From NCBI RefSeq assembly GCF_022811925.1, contig NZ_CP065511.1, positions 3,713,501-3,777,500 on the forward strand: 64,000 bases of DNA, written 5' to 3'. Within the stretch, counting starts at the first letter, position 1; every line of letters begins with the position of its first letter. Below the pieces are notes generated by a model. That model was not told the origin of the DNA. It saw nothing but the letters and a program-made list of their open reading frames with translations, and ran no database searches. Both the position numbers and the translations under genes were made by a program. Positions 1,081 through 16,799 of the stretch are shown piece by piece. The stretch is from Cytobacillus oceanisediminis (GTDB lineage Bacteria; Bacillota; Bacilli; Bacillales; Cytobacillaceae).

Positions 1081-1173
1081 TAGGAAAGAATAGACCAAAT
1101 TAGTAGGTTTCTTTTTCTTAGCCTCTATGGGTTGGATAATGTGGAAAAACAAACCCGAAAGCAATAACAATAA

Positions 1174-1224
1174 AAAAAGTGCCCAACCCAGATGTTATAA
1201 AGGAAAAAGGCACTTTTTCTATTT
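1174..1224. terminator. Bidirectional rho-independent terminator
   Basis: Ten-base arms AAAAAGTGCC (1174-1183) and GGCACTTTTT (1209-1218), followed by T-rich sequence on both strands. It can end the cupin transcript on + and the decayed helicase gene on -. Confidence 0.75.
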
Positions 1225-1225
1225 T

Positions 1226-1560
1226 TTATTCTCTATCTAATAATCCTCCAAGGTCCTCAGCCACTCTTAATACTCTTCCAGACGAAACATTATTATAAGT
1301 TCTTGTTCGCTGCAATCGCCATTTAAAGTAAGCATTCAACTAAGGGTCAGTACAAAATACAAAACATCCTTTTTTGTCCTCTGGTCATAAGAGTCCGGTA
1401 AGTATTGCGTATAATTTGGTCAGCTGCTGCTTGTGCTTTCTTAGAGTCTTTTTTGCTATAGTTTTAATGCCACTTAAAGATTGACCTGTCTTGGCACGTG
1501 GATTACCTTGCCACTCTCATTAGTTAAGTCGGAATTAATGATGACACAGCATACTTAAAC
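1226..1560 (-). pseudogene. Decayed 3' end of a DUF2075 (Schlafen-like) DNA/RNA helicase
   Basis: Read on the minus strand in shifting frames, this stretch gives VIINSDLTNESGKVI, then RAKTGQSLSGIK, then AADQIIRNTYRTLMTRGQKG and CFVFCTD, and finally VLRVAEDLGGLLDRE with a stop at 1226. These match in order the C-terminal motifs of DUF2075 proteins (VIIG-DL-ENGKVI ... QSLKGI ... NTYRVLMTRG-KGCYVYC). At least one frameshift falls in the six-base homopolymer near 1371-1376. No 5' portion of the gene is present, so this is a remnant. DUF2075 genes often sit in accessory or defence neighbourhoods. The family call is from memory of motifs, not a search. Confidence 0.6.
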
Positions 1561-1675
1561 AATTCTCAAGGAACCTTTTACACTATTTCATGCCAAAATT
1601 CCTATTCAACTAATTGCCCGAGTCCTTTAAGATGAAATAGAAGAAAATGGAATTTACAATGTGGAGCTGATTCTA

Positions 1676-3460
1676 TTGAAGGTATTAGAAGCAGATTCCT
1701 TGCTTGCAGGAATCAACGAGACGAGCAATCAATTATCTATCCTTAAAAATCATGTAAATCAAGTTCAGATATCCATCCAGGAGCTGGTGTCTCTGGAAGA
1801 TGCTTTTAAAGGGCAGGGCGGCCAGGCTATACGTGCGTTTTACCAGGAATGCCACCAGCCTTTTCTGCAATTCCTTGAATCCTGGATTGACGAGTATCAA
1901 TCCTATTTAAAAAGTTTCATAGGTTCATTGCGGGATCTTGAACCCTCCCCATCAGGCTTTATCCGCCAGGAATTCCTGGAGCATGAGCTCAAACAGGGGC
2001 TGAGGAACACTCTTCAGATCACTGTTGAACTGACACAAGAAGCGAATGATATCATGAAGTCCGTAAGCGATATTGTAGCGCTTCCGCTGCTGGAGGATGG
2101 CCGCTTTATTCATGCATCAAAGAGAGCTGAGGATTCAAGCCAAGAAACCCTTGAAAAACTGGAGGAATTTGACCATCGGGAAACGGCTGCACTGGACCCT
2201 CTCCTGCATGATCTAACTCTTATGAACCAGTACATTCAAAAAATGGCGGGCATGTTCCAAAGCAGTAGCCTATCTATATCTCATTACCATCCAAAGGCTC
2301 TCACTTGGAAGGATTTCCATGAGGAAGTATCGAATCCTAACCCAGAAAGCGAGGAAAGTATCCTTCAAGATATGGCTAAAGGAGTCATCGAGGGTGCATC
2401 CAAAGCTGTAGAGGATACATGGGAAGGACTGAAGTCAACTTATGAGCTGGGACGGACCATCATGGGTCCGTTCAGTCCGCTGTTTTTGGGCAATGAATTG
2501 CTGTTTAACCGTGACCAGCTACTCGAAAACCAAAGGAAGCACCAGGAATTTTATTTGGGCATTTTAAATGACCCCATTGGAAAAGTACGCCAGGCTCTTG
2601 ATATGCCGAAATACATATGGTCCGCTGTCACCAGCGCCTGGGAGCGGGATGTCATAAATGGGGATGCCAAAAGCCGGACAGCCTTCTTTACCTATGGCCT
2701 AACTTCCCTTGGAATTGGTATTCTTGGGGATAAAGGGATAGGGAAAGCAGGAACCATTGCTAAGACGGTTGGCCAGGCAGGTAAAGGAGAGAAGGCACTT
2801 TCTATTTACACGCCGGTTCAGACACCGGCATTGGCAGGAGGAGGACTGGCTCAGGGGCCAGTGCCGTATAATGTTCTTTATGATCCGTTGACTAAGATTA
2901 AGACGGTGACTGATGATGTGTTTGGTGCTAAGGGTACGGGTAATTCTGTAAGTGATTATATTGATGATATGATCGTGAATGGAAATGTAGATTCCATTAA
3001 AATGAATAAGCTTAAAAATGCAATTCAAAATAATACATTTAGTGTAGATGAACTGTCTGAGATTAGAAAAAAGATGTCTGAATTAGGCATTACTAAAGAA
3101 TATGATGAAGCATTAATTAAAATGGATTTTGGTAAGTATCTCAGAGGATTAATAGGTGATCCACCTACTGCTATGATCGATCCACATGCACATCATATTT
3201 TATTTAAAAAGGGTTTAGGTGAGGCTCAACAAAAACTCGTTCAAGAAGGTCAAGAAATATTAAGAAAATATGGTATTGACCCTGTAATTGGTAAAGAAAA
3301 TCTAGTTTGGGCACCAAATAGAGTTGCCGGACAACATAGTATTGCAGCTCTGGAGAATGTTGTAGATCAGTTGAAAGCAGTTGATGCGGCAGGTGCAGAT
3401 TTAGATGATATCATTGAAATACTAGAAGACCTTGGAAAACAAGCTGCTTCTAGGAGATAG
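1676..3460 (+). CDS. LXG-domain polymorphic toxin with C-terminal AHH nuclease domain
   Basis: About 594 residues. The N-terminal LXG domain (roughly residues 1-200, beginning MKVLEADSLL) is helical and contains SLEDAFKGQGGQAIRAFYQECH, the family signature for export through the type VII (ESX/Yuk) pathway. A linker follows, including a hydrophobic TYGLTSLGIGILGDKGIGKA stretch. The last ~95 residues carry HAHHILFKKG and LVWAPN..GQHS, the hallmark of AHH nucleases of the HNH/ENDO VII superfamily, so the toxin is predicted to cut nucleic acid in rival cells. I prefer the TTG at 1676 (GGAG nine bases upstream; LXG proteins normally begin at this residue) over the GTG at 1661. From about 2885 the sequence becomes clearly more AT-rich, as expected for an exchanged toxin tip. 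The ankyrin gene 20 bp downstream is the likely immunity gene. Confidence 0.88.
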   Translation: MKVLEADSLLAGINETSNQLSILKNHVNQVQISIQELVSLEDAFKGQGGQAIRAFYQECHQPFLQFLESWIDEYQSYLKSFIGSLRDLEPSPSGFIRQEFLEHELKQGLRNTLQITVELTQEANDIMKSVSDIVALPLLEDGRFIHASKRAEDSSQETLEKLEEFDHRETAALDPLLHDLTLMNQYIQKMAGMFQSSSLSISHYHPKALTWKDFHEEVSNPNPESEESILQDMAKGVIEGASKAVEDTWEGLKSTYELGRTIMGPFSPLFLGNELLFNRDQLLENQRKHQEFYLGILNDPIGKVRQALDMPKYIWSAVTSAWERDVINGDAKSRTAFFTYGLTSLGIGILGDKGIGKAGTIAKTVGQAGKGEKALSIYTPVQTPALAGGGLAQGPVPYNVLYDPLTKIKTVTDDVFGAKGTGNSVSDYIDDMIVNGNVDSIKMNKLKNAIQNNTFSVDELSEIRKKMSELGITKEYDEALIKMDFGKYLRGLIGDPPTAMIDPHAHHILFKKGLGEAQQKLVQEGQEILRKYGIDPVIGKENLVWAPNRVAGQHSIAALENVVDQLKAVDAAGADLDDIIEILEDLGKQAASRR

Positions 3461-3480
3461 AGGTTAAAGGAGAAATTAAT

Positions 3481-3990
3481 ATGGATAAGACTCAATTTGC
3501 TAAAGATATTAGAAGTGCCATAAAAAGTGGGCAATTGGATACTTTAAGAGATTTACTTAAGAAAGACCCAGATATGTTAACATGGATGACACCTTTTGGT
3601 ACATGGTTACATGTAGCGGCAGCACATGGACATTTAGAGATAGTAGAATATCTTATTAATACAGGAATAGATGTTAATGCACAAGGTGGAACTTTTTCTA
3701 CAAATGCTCTTGAAAGAGCGACTGCAAAAGGACATTTAGATATTGCTAAATATCTAATTAGTAAGAATGTGGAGATTGATATTAGTGAACCAGATAGAAA
3801 TCCTCTGTTTGCTGCAATATATGGTGGGCATTTGGAGATTGTTAAATTGTTAGTTGAGAATAATATAGATATATCTATAAAATACTCTGGTGAAACCATG
3901 AAAGATATGGATGCCTATGCATTTGCCATAGAAAGAGGACAAACAGAAATTGCTGAATATTTAAAACGAAAGATGGACGAAACAGAATAA
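3481..3990 (+). CDS. Ankyrin-repeat protein, candidate immunity protein for the AHH toxin
   Basis: 169 residues with about four ankyrin repeats. Conserved pieces are GTWLHVAAAHGHLEIVEYLINTGIDVNAQGG, ALERATAKGHLDIAKYLI, PLFAAIYGGHLEIVKLLVENNIDI and AFAIERGQTEIAEYL. No signal peptide or membrane segment is seen, so it should act in the cytoplasm. It begins 20 bp after the LXG toxin stop with GGAG close upstream of the ATG, so the two are cotranscribed, and it shares the low GC of the toxin tip. Ankyrin proteins are a known class of immunity protein in polymorphic toxin loci; that this one neutralises this toxin is inferred from position. Confidence 0.8.
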   Translation: MDKTQFAKDIRSAIKSGQLDTLRDLLKKDPDMLTWMTPFGTWLHVAAAHGHLEIVEYLINTGIDVNAQGGTFSTNALERATAKGHLDIAKYLISKNVEIDISEPDRNPLFAAIYGGHLEIVKLLVENNIDISIKYSGETMKDMDAYAFAIERGQTEIAEYLKRKMDETE

Positions 3991-4080
3991 TAAAGAGTTA
4001 CGGTAAATAAGCCTAAAATCAAGAAATTAATAGGCTCACTTATTTAAAAAGAAATAGAAATAGTAATTAATAAACTATAG

Positions 4081-4118
4081 AGCACCTGATTGTCTTTTAG
4101 GCAGCAAGTGCTTTTTTG
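4081..4118 (+). terminator. Probable terminator of the toxin-immunity unit
   Basis: Arms AGCACCTG (4081-4088) and CAAGTGCT (4105-4112) pair with one mismatch and are followed by six Ts. Confidence 0.5.
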
Positions 4119-4355
4119 TAAGAAATTACTACTTTGGACAACATGAAAATTGATTTTATGAAATTCATAACTGATGAAGGTTGTACCTTTAAGGCATTCT
4201 GTTTTAATACTTGGTTTGTGAAAATAATAACGATAACTAGGTAAGATGACATTTTACATGCCAAGAGGATTACGATACTGCCAAACCCATAATCTAAAGA
4301 GAATGCCAAAGCACGTGGCGATAAAAGGTAGGTTACGTAAGAAGGTATAAGAGGT

Positions 4356-4496
4356 TTGTTACATGAGGATAAAATTGATGCAGGGATAGTTTTTACTGAC
4401 GAAGATGAATATTTTCCTGATTATCCTGAATTCAAAGAGAAAAATGTTGAGATGAGAGTTGACAGAATCAGTATAGAATTTTTAAATACAACTTAA
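4356..4496 (+). pseudogene. Orphan C-terminal fragment, immunity-like debris
   Basis: An open stretch of 46 codons encodes an acidic segment (DKIDAGIVFTDEDEYFPDYP then EFKEKNVEMRVDRISIEF) with coding-like composition. It has no proper start or upstream domain, and the frame is closed at 4338. Its place behind a toxin/ankyrin pair suggests a leftover from an earlier toxin or immunity cassette, as often accumulates at LXG loci. Family not recognised. The rest of 3991-4674 shows no convincing gene; a run of nine Cs lies at 4575-4583. Confidence 0.4.
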
Positions 4497-4674
4497 TAAT
4501 AATTGATAAGCTATTTGGTATTAGTGTGTTTTTAAACGGTATTTAAAACCTTGATGCCTTTCTAAATACAACAGCCCCCCCCCTAATACGATGAAGAGAT
4601 GCTGTTTTGTAAATGCCTACATGAATTGTCTGTATCATTGTTTCATTGTCCTTAGAGTAGAAATATTTCTAACC

Positions 4675-5043
4675 CTAATACTCCCCTCTAACAACAAAAA
4701 ACGATCCCCGAATAACCCCCGCCAGTTTAGACTTCAGCCTGTCAAACTTAAACTTCCCTTCTAACTCCTTTGGTACTTCCATCCCCTCAGAGAGCTTAAA
4801 ACCCACAGCACGTTTCTTAGGATCATCAATGGTATACATGACATTGACACTAAGGTCATCCTCATAAAAGACGTAGGTCCATTTGATATTTTCGACTTGA
4901 AATTGGGAAGTTTCTAAAGGTTTGGCTGCAAATTCTATATCACGTTCTTTTTTCAAGATATGGTTTACATAATCAAGGGTTTCCTGGCTTTCACTGGCAG
5001 GAACAACGGTAAATTTGGTCTGATAATTAATGTGCAATTTCAT
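4675..5043 (-). CDS. Uncharacterised 122-residue protein
   Basis: Soluble, alternating beta/alpha-looking protein with no signal peptide or membrane segment and no motif I recognise. It ends RGSFFVVRGEY. It is the last gene of a minus-strand series that starts with the 78-residue gene at 6534 and the transglycosylase-like gene. It follows the in-frame tail of the latter by 28 bp, so it is probably cotranscribed. The ribosome binding site is weak (GGCGG about 15 bases upstream). Function unknown. Confidence 0.55.
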   Translation of the reverse strand: MKLHINYQTKFTVVPASESQETLDYVNHILKKERDIEFAAKPLETSQFQVENIKWTYVFYEDDLSVNVMYTIDDPKKRAVGFKLSEGMEVPKELEGKFKFDRLKSKLAGVIRGSFFVVRGEY

Positions 5044-5071: not shown

Positions 5072-5227
5072 TTAGTTTGAGATTTTATCTTTAAATGCGA
5101 AACTAAATAAATCTACATACTTTATTTCTTCGAGATCAATTAAAAAATTTAAATTCTGCTTTATTATATCTTTGGTATCCAACTCTACTTGAGCCTCTAC
5201 CCTTTCGCCGTTCGGCAAATATAATTT
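5072..5227 (-). pseudogene. In-frame continuation of the transglycosylase-like gene after its TGA
   Basis: Directly after the TGA at 5230-5228 the same frame stays open for 51 codons (KLYLPNGERVEAQVELDTKD ... FAFKDKISN) up to a TAA at 5072. The sequence reads as a natural extension: TGT-like proteins normally continue past the catalytic DST motif with an RR-x-LY-hydrophobic stretch. A one-base change (for example TGG to TGA) would explain it. A separate gene from the TTG at 5218 is possible, but no ribosome binding site supports it. Confidence 0.5.
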
Positions 5228-6238
5228 TCACTGTGAAGGATTCCTTCTGCTATTAAGATAAGCGGTACTATCACTTGAAAAAAACGGGTATTCAAGCAGA
5301 AGTTCATTAGCTCCCCCAAGGAAATGGAAATTAACATTAGAATATAAATTAAATATTCGATCCAAAGTAGCTCTACAGTGGTTCAAACCTTTCTTCATTA
5401 AAGGAATTAACCCTCCAAGTGCTATCACCTCATGTTCTTCATCTACTAACATTTCTAAGGACTTTAGTGAATCCGAAACCTGAAATACAGGGATGAGGTT
5501 TGCTCCTGGAACCATGGCCTTTAATTTAGCATAATTTTCTTTTGTGGCTTCCGGATCTCCTATTACATCTAAGGGGAAGAACCCTATAATTCTTGGATTA
5601 TTCTTATTTGCATTAATAAAGTCTGCATACCCTTTCAATATCATATCCTGTTCAGTTTGTTCATCAAAAAGGGATAGATTTTGTAACCCTTTCTTACATT
5701 TTTGATTATGGAGAGAAAAGCTTCCGCTATCTATATATGCATATAAATTATATCTATCTAATTGCTTTAGACAGTTAGGCCCTGACTGCAGGATTTGAAA
5801 GAAATTAAAAAGCACAAAATTTCCTCCTATTTTTTTAAGCAGCTGCAACCCATTCTTTTCTCTTTCAAGTCCACTTGCCCAAAAACGCAGTGTTTTAAGG
5901 GATAAACGGTACCCTTCTCTTAACTTCAAGAACCATGCAATATGATGAAAAATCCTATTTATCATTCCAAATAGTGCTGATGAGTAGCTAGAGAAACCCT
6001 CCATATCCTTTCTAATTATGGTTCTTTTAAATAATGTAAAAGAAATAGCACGTCTTAGTTGCCCTCTGGTTATTGAAATAGAGCTCCCCTTTTGCTTTTT
6101 AACAGTAATAGAATTTTTACCATATTGAACAATATAATTAGTTATGCCACTGGCCGTATTATAATAGCCAGCTTTCATCATTTCCCGCTTAAACTTGCGT
6201 TCATAACTTCTTGCACTTGTTTGGTACTTTACAATCAT
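5228..6238 (-). CDS. TGT/DpdA-like transglycosylase (queuine tRNA-ribosyltransferase superfamily), probably truncated
   Basis: 336 residues up to a TGA. The C-terminal two thirds has the TIM-barrel landmarks of tRNA-guanine transglycosylases and the phage/island DpdA branch: YIDSGSFSL (Asp170, base-binding Asp), FPLDVIGDP (Asp224), LIPVFQ (249-253), IALGG (272-276) and SSDST (Asp323, position of the catalytic nucleophile). The zinc-binding C-terminal Cys/His cluster of housekeeping Tgt is absent, as in DpdA-type enzymes. The N-terminal ~110 residues are basic and unlike Tgt. DpdA exchanges guanine for a 7-deazaguanine in DNA; whether this protein uses DNA, RNA or neither is not shown, and no queuosine-precursor genes lie nearby. 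Downstream in-frame coding sequence suggests the original protein had about 388 residues. Confidence 0.55.
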   Translation of the reverse strand: MIVKYQTSARSYERKFKREMMKAGYYNTASGITNYIVQYGKNSITVKKQKGSSISITRGQLRRAISFTLFKRTIIRKDMEGFSSYSSALFGMINRIFHHIAWFLKLREGYRLSLKTLRFWASGLEREKNGLQLLKKIGGNFVLFNFFQILQSGPNCLKQLDRYNLYAYIDSGSFSLHNQKCKKGLQNLSLFDEQTEQDMILKGYADFINANKNNPRIIGFFPLDVIGDPEATKENYAKLKAMVPGANLIPVFQVSDSLKSLEMLVDEEHEVIALGGLIPLMKKGLNHCRATLDRIFNLYSNVNFHFLGGANELLLEYPFFSSDSTAYLNSRRNPSQ

Positions 6239-6297
6239 TCCTCATCCCTACCTTTGCTGTTAGTAGTGCTTCTAAGCTAAACCTAATGAATTTCAAC

Positions 6298-6534
6298 CTA
6301 ACAATCTTCAGTAAGATCCTGCAGGGCGTTCTTTTCATTAATGTAAATAGTCACTTCTTCGGCCGGTATTCCATAGTTTACTCCGCCAACTATTAATTCT
6401 CTCTTAGATTCCTCCAGGACTGCATACTGAACATACACTTTTTCTTTATGTTCCCAGCCACTTAGAATTGCTTCAGCATCCTTTCTGCAGAAAAATAAAT
6501 TATCAAACACTCGGTAAACCTTTTTGATGATCAT
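6298..6534 (-). CDS. Uncharacterised 78-residue protein
   Basis: The start is the ATG at 6534, preceded by an excellent AAGGAGG six bases upstream; longer frames reaching 6621 run into the repeat and are unlikely. The protein begins MIIKKVYRVFDNLFFCRKDA and ends IYINEKNALQDLTEDC. No family recognised. It lies 59 bp upstream of the transglycosylase-like gene in the same direction and is probably its first operon partner. Its ribosome binding site directly abuts the border of repeat copy 1. Confidence 0.6.
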   Translation of the reverse strand: MIIKKVYRVFDNLFFCRKDAEAILSGWEHKEKVYVQYAVLEESKRELIVGGVNYGIPAEEVTIYINEKNALQDLTEDC

Positions 6535-6572
6535 TGTTATCCTCCTTAAAAAGTAATGGAAAATGCAAAAAA

Positions 6573-6635
6573 CGCACTTTACCCAAAGGATTAAATTAAC
6601 TACGATAGTAGTTTTAATCACTTGGATAAAGTGCG
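6573..6635. other. Long hairpin inside repeat copy 1
   Basis: Outer arms CGCACTTTA (6573-6581) and TAAAGTGCG (6627-6635), then CCAA/TTGG, GATTAAA/TTTAATC and ACTAC/GTAGT around a short loop. About 26 base pairs are interrupted by small mismatches. The second copy (about 14141-14203) keeps most of the pairing. Confidence 0.8.
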
Positions 6636-6725
6636 TTCAAAAATGAAAGATAATAACGCCCGCATGGGTGTTAGTAAAAATAAAAAGAAGAAGTATGAGT
6701 CTAGTATATCATCCCGATTAGTCAT

Positions 6726-6769
6726 AAAAAAGGAAAGATTACAGTCATTTGTTTTCCGCTTCCTTTTTT
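6726..6769 (+). terminator. Terminator-like hairpin at the end of repeat copy 1
   Basis: AAAAAAGGAA (6726-6735) pairs with TTCCTTTTTT (6760-6769), A-rich on one side and T-rich on the other, so it could work in both directions. Confidence 0.5.
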
Positions 6770-6832
6770 TAATGCGATAGTGTTTAACCGAGGAATATTA
6801 AAAAGGCATAAGGTAACCTGATTTTATTTATA

Positions 6833-8996: not shown

Positions 8997-9914
8997 ATGT
9001 TAGATTTTATAATTAAAAGATTAATACAAGTGGTCATCGTTGTATTTCTTGCTCTAACAGCAGTCTTCTTTTTAATTCGTCTTTCGGGAGATCCGACCAC
9101 ACTATTCCTCCCGCCTGATGCGCCAAGGGAACAAATTGAAGAATATCGTGAGTTATTAGGATTTAACCGTCCACTATATGTTCAATACACTGACTTCATG
9201 AAAGGCGCCATTCAAGGTGATTTTGGAGAATCTTTAAGAAGTGGCGACGATGCTCTAGGACTTGTTTTAGAAAGAATGCCAGCAACTTTTCAATTAGCAT
9301 TCTCAGCATTGTTATTATCAATCATCATCGCTATTCCACTTGGTGTTCTATCTGCATATAAACGAAACACCCTATTTGATAAAGCAAGTGTAGGGATTAC
9401 GGTTATCGGTCAGGCTATCCCCAGTTTTTGGTTTGGTTTAATTTTAATTTTTATTTTTGCTGCTCAACTAAAATTATTTCCATCGAGTGGAGGCGGCTCT
9501 GTTAATCACATGGTGCTTCCAGTTATTACACTAGCTTTGTATAGCGTATCGCGTTTTGTCCGCTTTACTCGATCGGCCATGCTAGATGTATTAAATAAAG
9601 ACTATATCCGAACAACCAAAGCAGCTGGAACACCAACATCCACGCTAATTATGAAATACGCCTTAAAAAATTCTTTGATTCCGATCCTCACATTAATTGC
9701 ACTTGATCTCGGTGTTTTATTAGGCGGCGCTGTCATTACGGAAGCTGTTTTTTCTTGGCCTGGTGTAGGAAGACTATTACACCAGTCATTAATGAATCGA
9801 GATTTCCCAATTGTATTGGCTGGGGTATTTATCATTGCCATCATTTATGCAGTCATCAACTTTATTACAGATATTTTATATGCATATGTGAACCCCCAAA
9901 TTAGAGTGAAGTAG
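8997..9914 (+). CDS. ABC transporter permease, OppB/DppB type
   Basis: 305 residues, about six transmembrane segments (first at residues 7-29). Contains the N-terminal OppB block (TVFFLIRLSGDPTTLFLP, LGFNRPLYVQY) and the EAA loop region (RTTKAAGTPTSTLIMKYAL-KNSLIPIL) that docks to the ATPase. The ATG follows a purine-rich AAGGCGGGG. It pairs with the OppC-like gene 8 bp downstream to form the membrane channel of the five-component importer. Confidence 0.92.
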   Translation: MLDFIIKRLIQVVIVVFLALTAVFFLIRLSGDPTTLFLPPDAPREQIEEYRELLGFNRPLYVQYTDFMKGAIQGDFGESLRSGDDALGLVLERMPATFQLAFSALLLSIIIAIPLGVLSAYKRNTLFDKASVGITVIGQAIPSFWFGLILIFIFAAQLKLFPSSGGGSVNHMVLPVITLALYSVSRFVRFTRSAMLDVLNKDYIRTTKAAGTPTSTLIMKYALKNSLIPILTLIALDLGVLLGGAVITEAVFSWPGVGRLLHQSLMNRDFPIVLAGVFIIAIIYAVINFITDILYAYVNPQIRVK

Positions 9915-14113: not shown

Positions 14114-14337
14114 CTTAAAAAGTAATGGAAAATGCAAAAAACGTACTTTACCCAAAGGATTAATTAACTACGATAGTAGTTTTAATCACTTGGATAATGT
14201 GCGTTCATTAATTAAAGATAATAACGCCCGCCTGGGTGTTAGTAAAAATGAAAAGAAGAAGTAATAGTCTAGTATACCCTCCTCATAAGCCATAAAAAAG
14301 GAAAGATTGAAGTCATTTGTTTTCCGCTCTCTTTTCT
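14114..14337. repeat. Direct repeat copy 2
   Basis: Same orientation and order as 6545-6770. Here the right end overlaps the 3' end of a complete 41-codon gene on the minus strand, whereas copy 1 retains only its last codons. Copy 2 therefore looks closer to the original context. Confidence 0.9.
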
Positions 14338-14438
14338 TTTAAAACTTCGATTATCTTTTCGTTTTCCTTTGCCACTTTAAATCCCATATCTTTACCGAAT
14401 GTCTTCTTTTGACCCTTTATACCCTTATCATCTCCCAT
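14313..14438 (-). CDS. Small basic protein, 41 residues
   Basis: Starts MGDDKGIKGQKKTFGKDMGF and ends KEKRAENK. AAGGAGG lies seven bases before the ATG, one of the best ribosome binding sites in the window. Charged, no membrane segment, family unknown. Its last codons and 3' flank are duplicated as repeat copy 1 at 6545-6770. Confidence 0.55.
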   Translation of the reverse strand: MGDDKGIKGQKKTFGKDMGFKVAKENEKIIEVLKEKRAENK

Positions 14439-14492
14439 AGCTATCCTCCTTATATAAGAAGTATATCCATGGACCTTTTGCAATATGACCAT

Positions 14493-14522
14493 AAAAAAAG
14501 CAAAGGCGTTTTGCCTTTGCTT
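14493..14522 (-). terminator. Rho-independent terminator
   Basis: Arms AAGCAAAGGC (14498-14507) and GCCTTTGCTT (14513-14522), with a seven-base T run on the minus strand, just after the frameshifted small gene. Confidence 0.75.
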
Positions 14523-14529
14523 CCAGTCT

Positions 14530-14729
14530 CTATTGGTTATTTAACAACTCTAACACCTTTTTATTCATTTCATTTACACCACTAAATGAGTCTCCAGGTG
14601 CAACTTTGGTTAATTCTTTCCGCGATTATTAATTGCAGTGGTTTCTCCAGAGGGAGTAACCATTCTGCCTGCTCGGCCTCTATACTTCTTAACCTTTTTT
14701 CTTGAATGAGCAATTCTGCTAGCAATCAT
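14530..14729 (-). pseudogene. Frameshifted small basic protein gene (about 65 codons)
   Basis: From the ATG at 14729 (GGAG upstream) the frame encodes MIASRIAHSRKKVKKYRGRA ... TTAINNRGKN and stops. After loss of one base near 14612-14621 the next frame continues LTKVAPGDSFSGVNEMNKKV LELLNNQ to a stop at 14530. The restored sequence would read RGKELTKVAPGDSF. Family unknown. A terminator follows, consistent with a former gene end. Confidence 0.5.
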
Positions 14730-14783
14730 AGTTAATCATTCTCCATTGGATTGATTATATTTAATTATACCACTAATACTCTA

Positions 14784-15692
14784 TTAACACATCTCCCATT
14801 CAAAAATACTGATGAGATTGACAATATTAAGAGCATCAATTCCCGTTACTTCAACATCTTTGCTGCTAACTAAAGCTAAGTAGGTATGCTGGCCATAAAA
14901 AGGAACAATAAATAATTCTTCTATGACCAATGGCAAGCTTTCTGCATCAGCTAGTCGGTTCGAGACATAATGGAAATTCCTTTTAAATTCGAAAACTTGG
15001 CTTTCCCGTGCACCACATTATCTGACATGACAGAAATTTTCGGGTCCACAAAAATGGATAGAAGGATCGTTGCCACACCGTTTATGAGTCCGGATGCCAT
15101 TATAGCAGTATTTGAACTAACCGTTGTGAGCAAGGAAGCATATAGGGCTGCCAGTACTCCAATCGTATATATGGCTGTCACAAACATATTGAATAAAAAT
15201 AGCCGTTTTGGTATTTCACTTAGTTTAAGCCCATTCAAATAGGAGATTCTCGGAATCTTAAAATGTTTAAATTCTCTTAGCCGATTTCCAATTAAATCCG
15301 ATTTTCAGTAATGAAGGAACCGAACCTTCCTCTTCGGCAAGACGGATTATCGCTCTTGAAAAAATGGCTATGAACGTTGGGAGCAATAGGATTCCAATAA
15401 TGGTCCCTATTGTGGATGCCCCTATTAACACCCTGAATTGACTTTCCACAAAACCGAGAAAGTTTTGTTCAGGCGCAGTATCAATAATACTGCCAAGCAA
15501 TGGCTGCTGATCCATGTTTGCCATTCGTGAAACAATGACAATGGTACTGAACAAAGAAAGCCCTGATGCTATCAGCTTGACCCTGGCACCCGATAATCGG
15601 ACTGCATAAGCCAGTGTTTCAATACTATGTATAAGGATAATAAATAAAGAAGTAAACACGATCTTCCCCGTCATTAGATCCAAAAAGAACAC
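14784..15692 (-). pseudogene. amj: Amj-like (DUF2837) lipid II flippase gene with two frameshifts
   Basis: Three consecutive frames give one protein. Frame one (15692-15267) reads IHSIETLAYAVRLSGARVKL ... IVIVSRMANMDQQPLLGSII, the hallmark N-terminus of Amj (B. subtilis YdaH). A shift near 15300 leads into NRLREFKHFKIPRISYLNGL KLSEIPKRLFLFN ... TTVSSNTAIMASGLINGVAT. A second shift near 14951 leads into LADAESLPLVIEELFIVPFY GQHTYLALV ... with a stop at 14784. Amj is the alternate flippase that can replace MurJ in moving lipid II across the membrane. As written the gene is broken; sequencing error at both sites is the alternative. Start is the GTG at 15692 or the ATG at 15675. Confidence 0.75.
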
Positions 15693-16330: not shown

Positions 16331-16434
16331 AGTATGGCCTCCTTCTTTTTAACTTCAGTAAGATTGGACTCATTAGAAACCTAATGGGAAAATAAGATGC
16401 AGACTGATGAAACCGTTTTTGAAGCAGATGCAGG

Positions 16435-16799
16435 ATTAACTCCTCTTTTCCTTCGGCCCTTGTCTTTTTCGTCGTTATTCTTCTTGATTAACTACCCTTT
16501 TCCTTCGACCCGTGTCCTTTTCGTCGTTATTCATCCCGATTAACTACCATTTTCCTTCGACCCTCTTCCTTTTCGTCGTTATTCATCCCAATTAACTACC
16601 ATTTCCCTTCGACCCTTGTCTTTTTCGTCGTTATTCATCCCGATTAACTACCATTTTCCTTCGACCCTCTTCCTTTTCGTCTATATTTTTCTTGATTAAC
16701 TCCCATTTTCCTTCGACACTCTTCTTTTTCGTCGTTATTCATCCCGATTAATTACTATTTCAATTGAACCCCTGCCTTTTTCGTCAATATCGATGCTGA
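16435..16799. repeat. Seven-copy tandem repeat, 52-bp period
   Basis: The element ATTAACTAC recurs at 16435, 16487, 16539, 16591, 16643, 16695 and 16747, exactly 52 bp apart, followed in each copy by TTTTCCTTCGACCC and TTTTTCGTCGTTATTC-like segments. The middle copies are most alike and the outer ones are degenerate. The period is not a multiple of three and stops occur in all frames, so it is non-coding. It fills the gap between the DUF1572 and VOC genes. Confidence 0.95.

Follow-up and report, generated by a model that had tools for sequence, protein, structure and literature searches.

The window, a 64,000-nucleotide stretch of Cytobacillus oceanisediminis (contig NZ_CP065511.1; G000:C1:3713501-3777500 in our numbering of this two-contig genome), carries on its minus strand a gene for a DpdA-like transglycosylase that is interrupted by an in-frame TGA. 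We consider it about 80% probable that this TGA is a nonsense mutation and that the gene is a truncated, decaying copy of a protein whose relatives occur on large plasmids of Bacillales. The two parts of the gene are as follows.

5228-6238, minus strand: truncated DpdA-like transglycosylase gene; its 336 codons end in the premature TGA (5230-5228), and both putative catalytic aspartates are retained.
5072-5227, minus strand: detached 3' remainder of the gene (51 codons plus a stop), corresponding to a beta hairpin and the last helix in the model of an intact relative.

Translation of the minus strand from 6238 to 5072 yields 336 residues, a single stop at 5230-5228 and then 51 in-frame codons up to the stop at 5072. 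A congener, Bacillus sp. NTK034 (G032), has an uninterrupted frame of 381 residues that covers both pieces. When the pieces were aligned to it separately, rather than as a joined protein, the 336-residue piece was 90% and the 51-residue piece 77% identical, and the junction fell exactly at the TGA. The original prediction that two stretches of one frame are split here, the second continuing the transglycosylase, is therefore borne out. A protein search found 37 relatives, of which 31 were aligned (alignment A3), the omitted ones being the window-type protein P0002 and five shorter proteins (P0023 and P0033-P0036). All 31 full-length relatives run on past the TGA column by 41-64 residues, with L369 and E370 invariant in this tail, and by this comparison the 51 codons behind the TGA are the true C-terminal end of the protein, not the start of an unrelated downstream gene as had also been proposed. 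At the TGA column 26 of the 31 have one basic residue, and none has Cys or Trp. As judged from these alignments, the interruption is confirmed as real and as more than a chance arrangement of frames.

Copies of the gene lie at the same site, beside a MarR-opp operon, in three genomes: that of the window, G005 and Bacillus sp. ZZV12-4809 (G027). All three are broken, each by different lesions. The G005 copy has lost its 5' part, has a frameshift near its 3' end and retains a sense codon at the position of the window's TGA; in G027 about 124 codons are left, with frame changes. Because the sister genomes carry other lesions at this site, we favor a nonsense mutation in a copy undergoing decay as the reading of the TGA. 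Of the options listed in the original prediction this corresponds to a fresh mutation, and its recent date is suggested by the ratio of replacement to silent rates (dN/dS), which is low in both pieces. Against the intact copy these rates are 0.046/0.347 for the body (336 codons) and 0.114/0.966 for the tail (44 codons). Since its split from G005, with the intact copy as outgroup for the shared part, the window branch has accumulated 5 silent and 2 replacement changes, and the G005 branch 5 silent and 8 replacement changes. The breakage in the window lineage would accordingly seem recent, although with such small counts a short form that remains functional would also be compatible. The truncated product is probably unstable or inactive, since the lost 51 residues form a hairpin and the closing barrel helix in the predicted structure of the intact relative.

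Several observations weigh against decay. The probability of two or fewer replacements in seven changes on the window branch, at an expected fraction of 0.75, is 0.013 (binomial), suggesting that the gene was not free to drift until recently; a working short form or a low level of readthrough would be compatible as well. The stop comes after both catalytic aspartates, and P0002, a 336-residue database protein that ends at the same residue as the window protein and differs from it only at residue 81, is the representative of a cluster with 10 members (of which the representative's end alone was seen), which could mean that the short form has been kept. A functional short form, in which the 336-residue catalytic barrel works without its last hairpin and helix and is maintained by selection, would account for all of these observations, but we consider it improbable. 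The tail is retained in all of the aligned full-length relatives, it is confidently folded in the model (predicted local distance difference test, pLDDT, of 91-94 for residues 341-370) inside the range aligned to TGT structures, and each of the same-site copies is broken.

Still less probable is programmed readthrough, or insertion of selenocysteine, at the TGA to give some full-length enzyme. The reading of TGA can be leaky in bacilli, the tail is still open over its 51 codons and the window's genome has a tRNA-Sec gene (G000:C1:2236398-2236490; 60.3 bits against a gathering score of 47). However, homologs of a selenoprotein would be expected to have Cys at the UGA column, and none of the 31 does, the column being mostly basic. 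A hairpin does form in the RNA behind the TGA, but the fold is no more stable than in shuffled sequences (z -1.35; 21 of 200 did equally well), and the hairpin sequence is also present in G005, where the codon is a sense codon and no TGA exists. We found nothing in support of this part of the original prediction. A sequencing or assembly error, for which one changed base would suffice, is the least credible explanation, because P0002 ends identically despite its one difference and, although its independence from the window was judged on sequence alone, comes from a record whose longest contig is 5,298,346 bases rather than the 5,336,205 of the window's genome, so that the two are not the same record.

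With the truncated protein as query, matches were found in 8 of 61 genomes, all 8 being among the 36 of the genus. That in G007 lies on a plasmid-like contig whose end cuts the gene; that in Cytobacillus firmus AMY 5.1.1 (G023) has stops inside; and those in Cytobacillus pseudoceanisediminis (G035) are two short fragments containing stops. The G018 match (30% identity over 127 residues, on a 4.9-Mb contig) has no internal stop.

The fold of the family was predicted on an intact relative, P0001, and is a TIM barrel of the TGT type. Asp residues at positions 170, in a DSG motif, and 323, after strand 8, are present in all 31 aligned relatives and in the window protein; their catalytic role is assigned by analogy with Tgt. 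The unusual basic N-terminal region of about 110 residues noted in the original prediction is also found in P0001, whose residues 1-110 include 21 Lys and Arg and 6 Asp and Glu. The family differs from Tgt proper in that none of the 31 relatives matches the Pfam TGT profile (PF01702), nor does the window piece at an E value of 1 or better. Canonical Tgt has a zinc site near its C-terminus, Cys-x-Cys-x2-Cys-His, and beyond the second aspartate A3 lacks any column of conserved Cys; the sole column with Cys in more than 10 of the 31 members, residue 167, is upstream of the DSG motif. Similarity to bacterial DpdA from the dpd genomic islands (NCBIfam NF041059; DpdA in PADLOC) is weak and far under the cut-off (12.8 bits vs. 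200, over residues 259-311), with 3 of the 31 relatives matching at E 1e-3 or better (best 1.1e-9).

The closest phage kin found are proteins annotated as queuine tRNA-ribosyltransferases (phrog_887), DpdA-like proteins of preQ0 clusters in the Mycobacterium phages Funsized, Saguaro, Cracklewink and StAugustine and Rhodococcus phage Finch. All 31 relatives match this profile (best E 2.5e-30), as does the window piece (E 1.9e-23). The DSG, LDVIGDP, GG, H-x-x-G and S-x-DS motifs align, and the profile match (99.5%, E 4.3e-23) spans residues 164-333, in agreement with the proposed similarity of the C-terminal half to TGT/DpdA. By alignment the phage proteins start at about residue 120-150 of the window family, which therefore has an extra N-terminal domain relative to them, and their C-termini differ. 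Unlike the phage genes, which adjoin ParB-like, Que and FolE genes, the plasmid-family copies that we read have no such set beside them. In having a transglycosylase gene without precursor-synthesis genes they resemble the phage "singleton" DpdA described, with discussion of host participation, by Hutinet et al. (2019; PMC6884629); the singletons reported there are from phages of Mycobacterium and gamma-proteobacteria, whereas the present family is from Bacillales plasmids.

A tblastn search of 72,556 plasmid records matched 18, with at least 80% covered in 14. Eleven are from Paenibacillus, two from Cytobacillus and one each from Peribacillus, Sutcliffiella, Thermobacillus, Priestia and Rossellomorea, and record lengths span 69 kb to 1.08 Mb. 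The family genes in them are annotated as "hypothetical protein" or not at all, and searches of the open PubMed Central (PMC) literature listed nothing on plasmid-borne DpdA in Bacillales. In IMG/VR there were distant matches only (26-36% identity, 9 loci). The 240-kb second contig of the window's own genome has another, distant DpdA-like gene (G000:C2:97409-98332; L009, L015; 37% identity, 351 aa), directly behind a PP-loop (phrog_424) gene.

We surveyed the neighbors of 13 distinct intact loci (L015, L023-L033 and L037) with flanks of up to 12 kb, cut in L028, L032 and L033; the counts are lower bounds, as only some frames were searched with profiles, and some assignments were made by BLAST clustering only. 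A PAPS-reductase-like PP-loop protein is encoded near the transglycosylase at seven loci (L015, L025, L026, L027, L029, L032 and L037) and a C5-methyltransferase-like gene at five (L026, L027, L029, where it is partial, L031 and L032). Seven more plasmid regions, with 7-kb flanks, had each of these in one case. In Neobacillus notoginsengisoli (L029) a Mom-family gene (9029-9739; PF25680, E 1.7e-7, above cut-off) lies about 260 bp upstream of the DpdA-like gene, with a small overlapping frame between them. At least three groups can be told apart among the PP-loop proteins, and a single fixed operon is therefore not shown. The accessible part of PMC12783734 contains no link between DpdA and PAPS-like proteins. 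Linkage across the genus was considered as further support and set aside as weak: the transglycosylase is matched in 8, the PP-loop protein in 6 and both in 4 of the 36 genomes (hypergeometric P 0.014), but several matches are fragmentary or weak, and carriage of the same plasmids could by itself account for the co-occurrence. C5-methyltransferase-like matches occur in 11 of the 36, and of the seven with E <1e-40, G011 and G024 are without a transglycosylase match. On the Paenibacillus polymyxa plasmid pSC2 (L100:9733-12214) a DpdA-like gene is near genes for a cGAS/DncV-like nucleotidyltransferase and a SAVED-domain protein.

Modified 7-deazaguanine bases in DNA are known from phages and dpd islands. 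We regard a DNA-modification role for the plasmid family, putative as it is, as having about an even chance of being correct. The intact enzymes would exchange guanine in plasmid DNA by means of the two aspartates of the barrel, the basic N-terminal domain may hold the DNA, and the replacement base would be a 7-deazaguanine from the host's preQ0/preQ1 pathway; the window's chromosome encodes QueC (291.9 bits), with adjacent frames read by eye as QueD and QueE, and its own normal Tgt (567.7 bits). To judge from fold, kin and neighbors, such an exchange could protect the plasmid from restriction. A role at plasmid entry is weakened by the typing of all 18 plasmid records as non-mobilizable, although transfer-type genes or an MPF_F label do occur in a few of them. 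An RNA substrate, for example a plasmid-specific tRNA, is the principal alternative; it seems unlikely to us, as the closest phage kin sit in preQ0-type clusters, some neighbors are C5-methyltransferase-like or Mom-like and the zinc-site Cys column is not conserved. More tentatively, DNA modification by this family might be one component of a plasmid hypermodification kit against restriction, in which an undescribed family of DNA-guanine transglycosylases on large Bacillaceae and Paenibacillaceae plasmids, with its own N-terminal nucleic-acid-binding domain and host-made preQ0/preQ1, acts together with PP-loop ATPases and C5-methyltransferase-like and Mom-like enzymes; we consider this doubtful in its entirety. 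A plasmid-borne branch, if true, would add plasmids to the known settings of base-swapping DNA modification and point to a means by which large Bacillales plasmids withstand restriction. No base-exchange function is expected of the window gene itself, which is of little weight beyond documenting what was probably a move from plasmid to chromosome followed by loss.

Three further features bear on this transfer.

5084-6770: segment 90.5% identical to a stretch (L014) of a 309-kb contig of Bacillus sp. NTK034; a putative plasmid-derived piece.
6298-6537, minus strand: small gene of 79 codons and unknown function; the same gene pair is on the plasmid-like contig of the congener.
6545-6770: 226-bp repeat with a second copy at 14114-14338 (91%); directly upstream of the small gene on the plasmid-like contig.

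The two direct repeats flank the MarR-opp block. A contiguous plasmid stretch seems to have been split in the window by this 7.3-kb block, because window positions 14114-14966 are 94% identical to the L014 stretch that continues from the transglycosylase segment. In G035 the operon is present and the DNA match begins only at window position 6797, which looks like the version of the site without the insert. We suggest that a large-plasmid segment holding the small gene and the DpdA-like gene became part of a Cytobacillus ancestor's chromosome next to the MarR-opp operon, and that the gene has since been undergoing loss, here by a nonsense mutation removing the last 51 residues. The NTK034 contig appears plasmid-like by content, not by proof: one L014 gene is common to four Cytobacillus plasmids at 93-94% and relatives of its E2-type gene are in 41 plasmid records, but the contig is not closed and no plasmid record covers 80% of the 20-kb L014 stretch, which tells against a plasmid origin. 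A palindrome within the 226-bp repeat (6571-6637; 80% self-match on the opposite strand) is conserved on the plasmid-like contig.

On the other side of the gene, the toxin locus that had been predicted next door was confirmed by a gene for an LXG-domain toxin-like protein (1661-3460; E 3.3e-60) and an ankyrin protein gene (3481-3990). Positions 1101-5012 are missing at the same place in G005. A 122-aa protein of unknown function is encoded at 4675-5043, with similar DNA copies elsewhere on the chromosome and in many congeners, and self-comparison of the window revealed short tandem repeats at 16434-16790.
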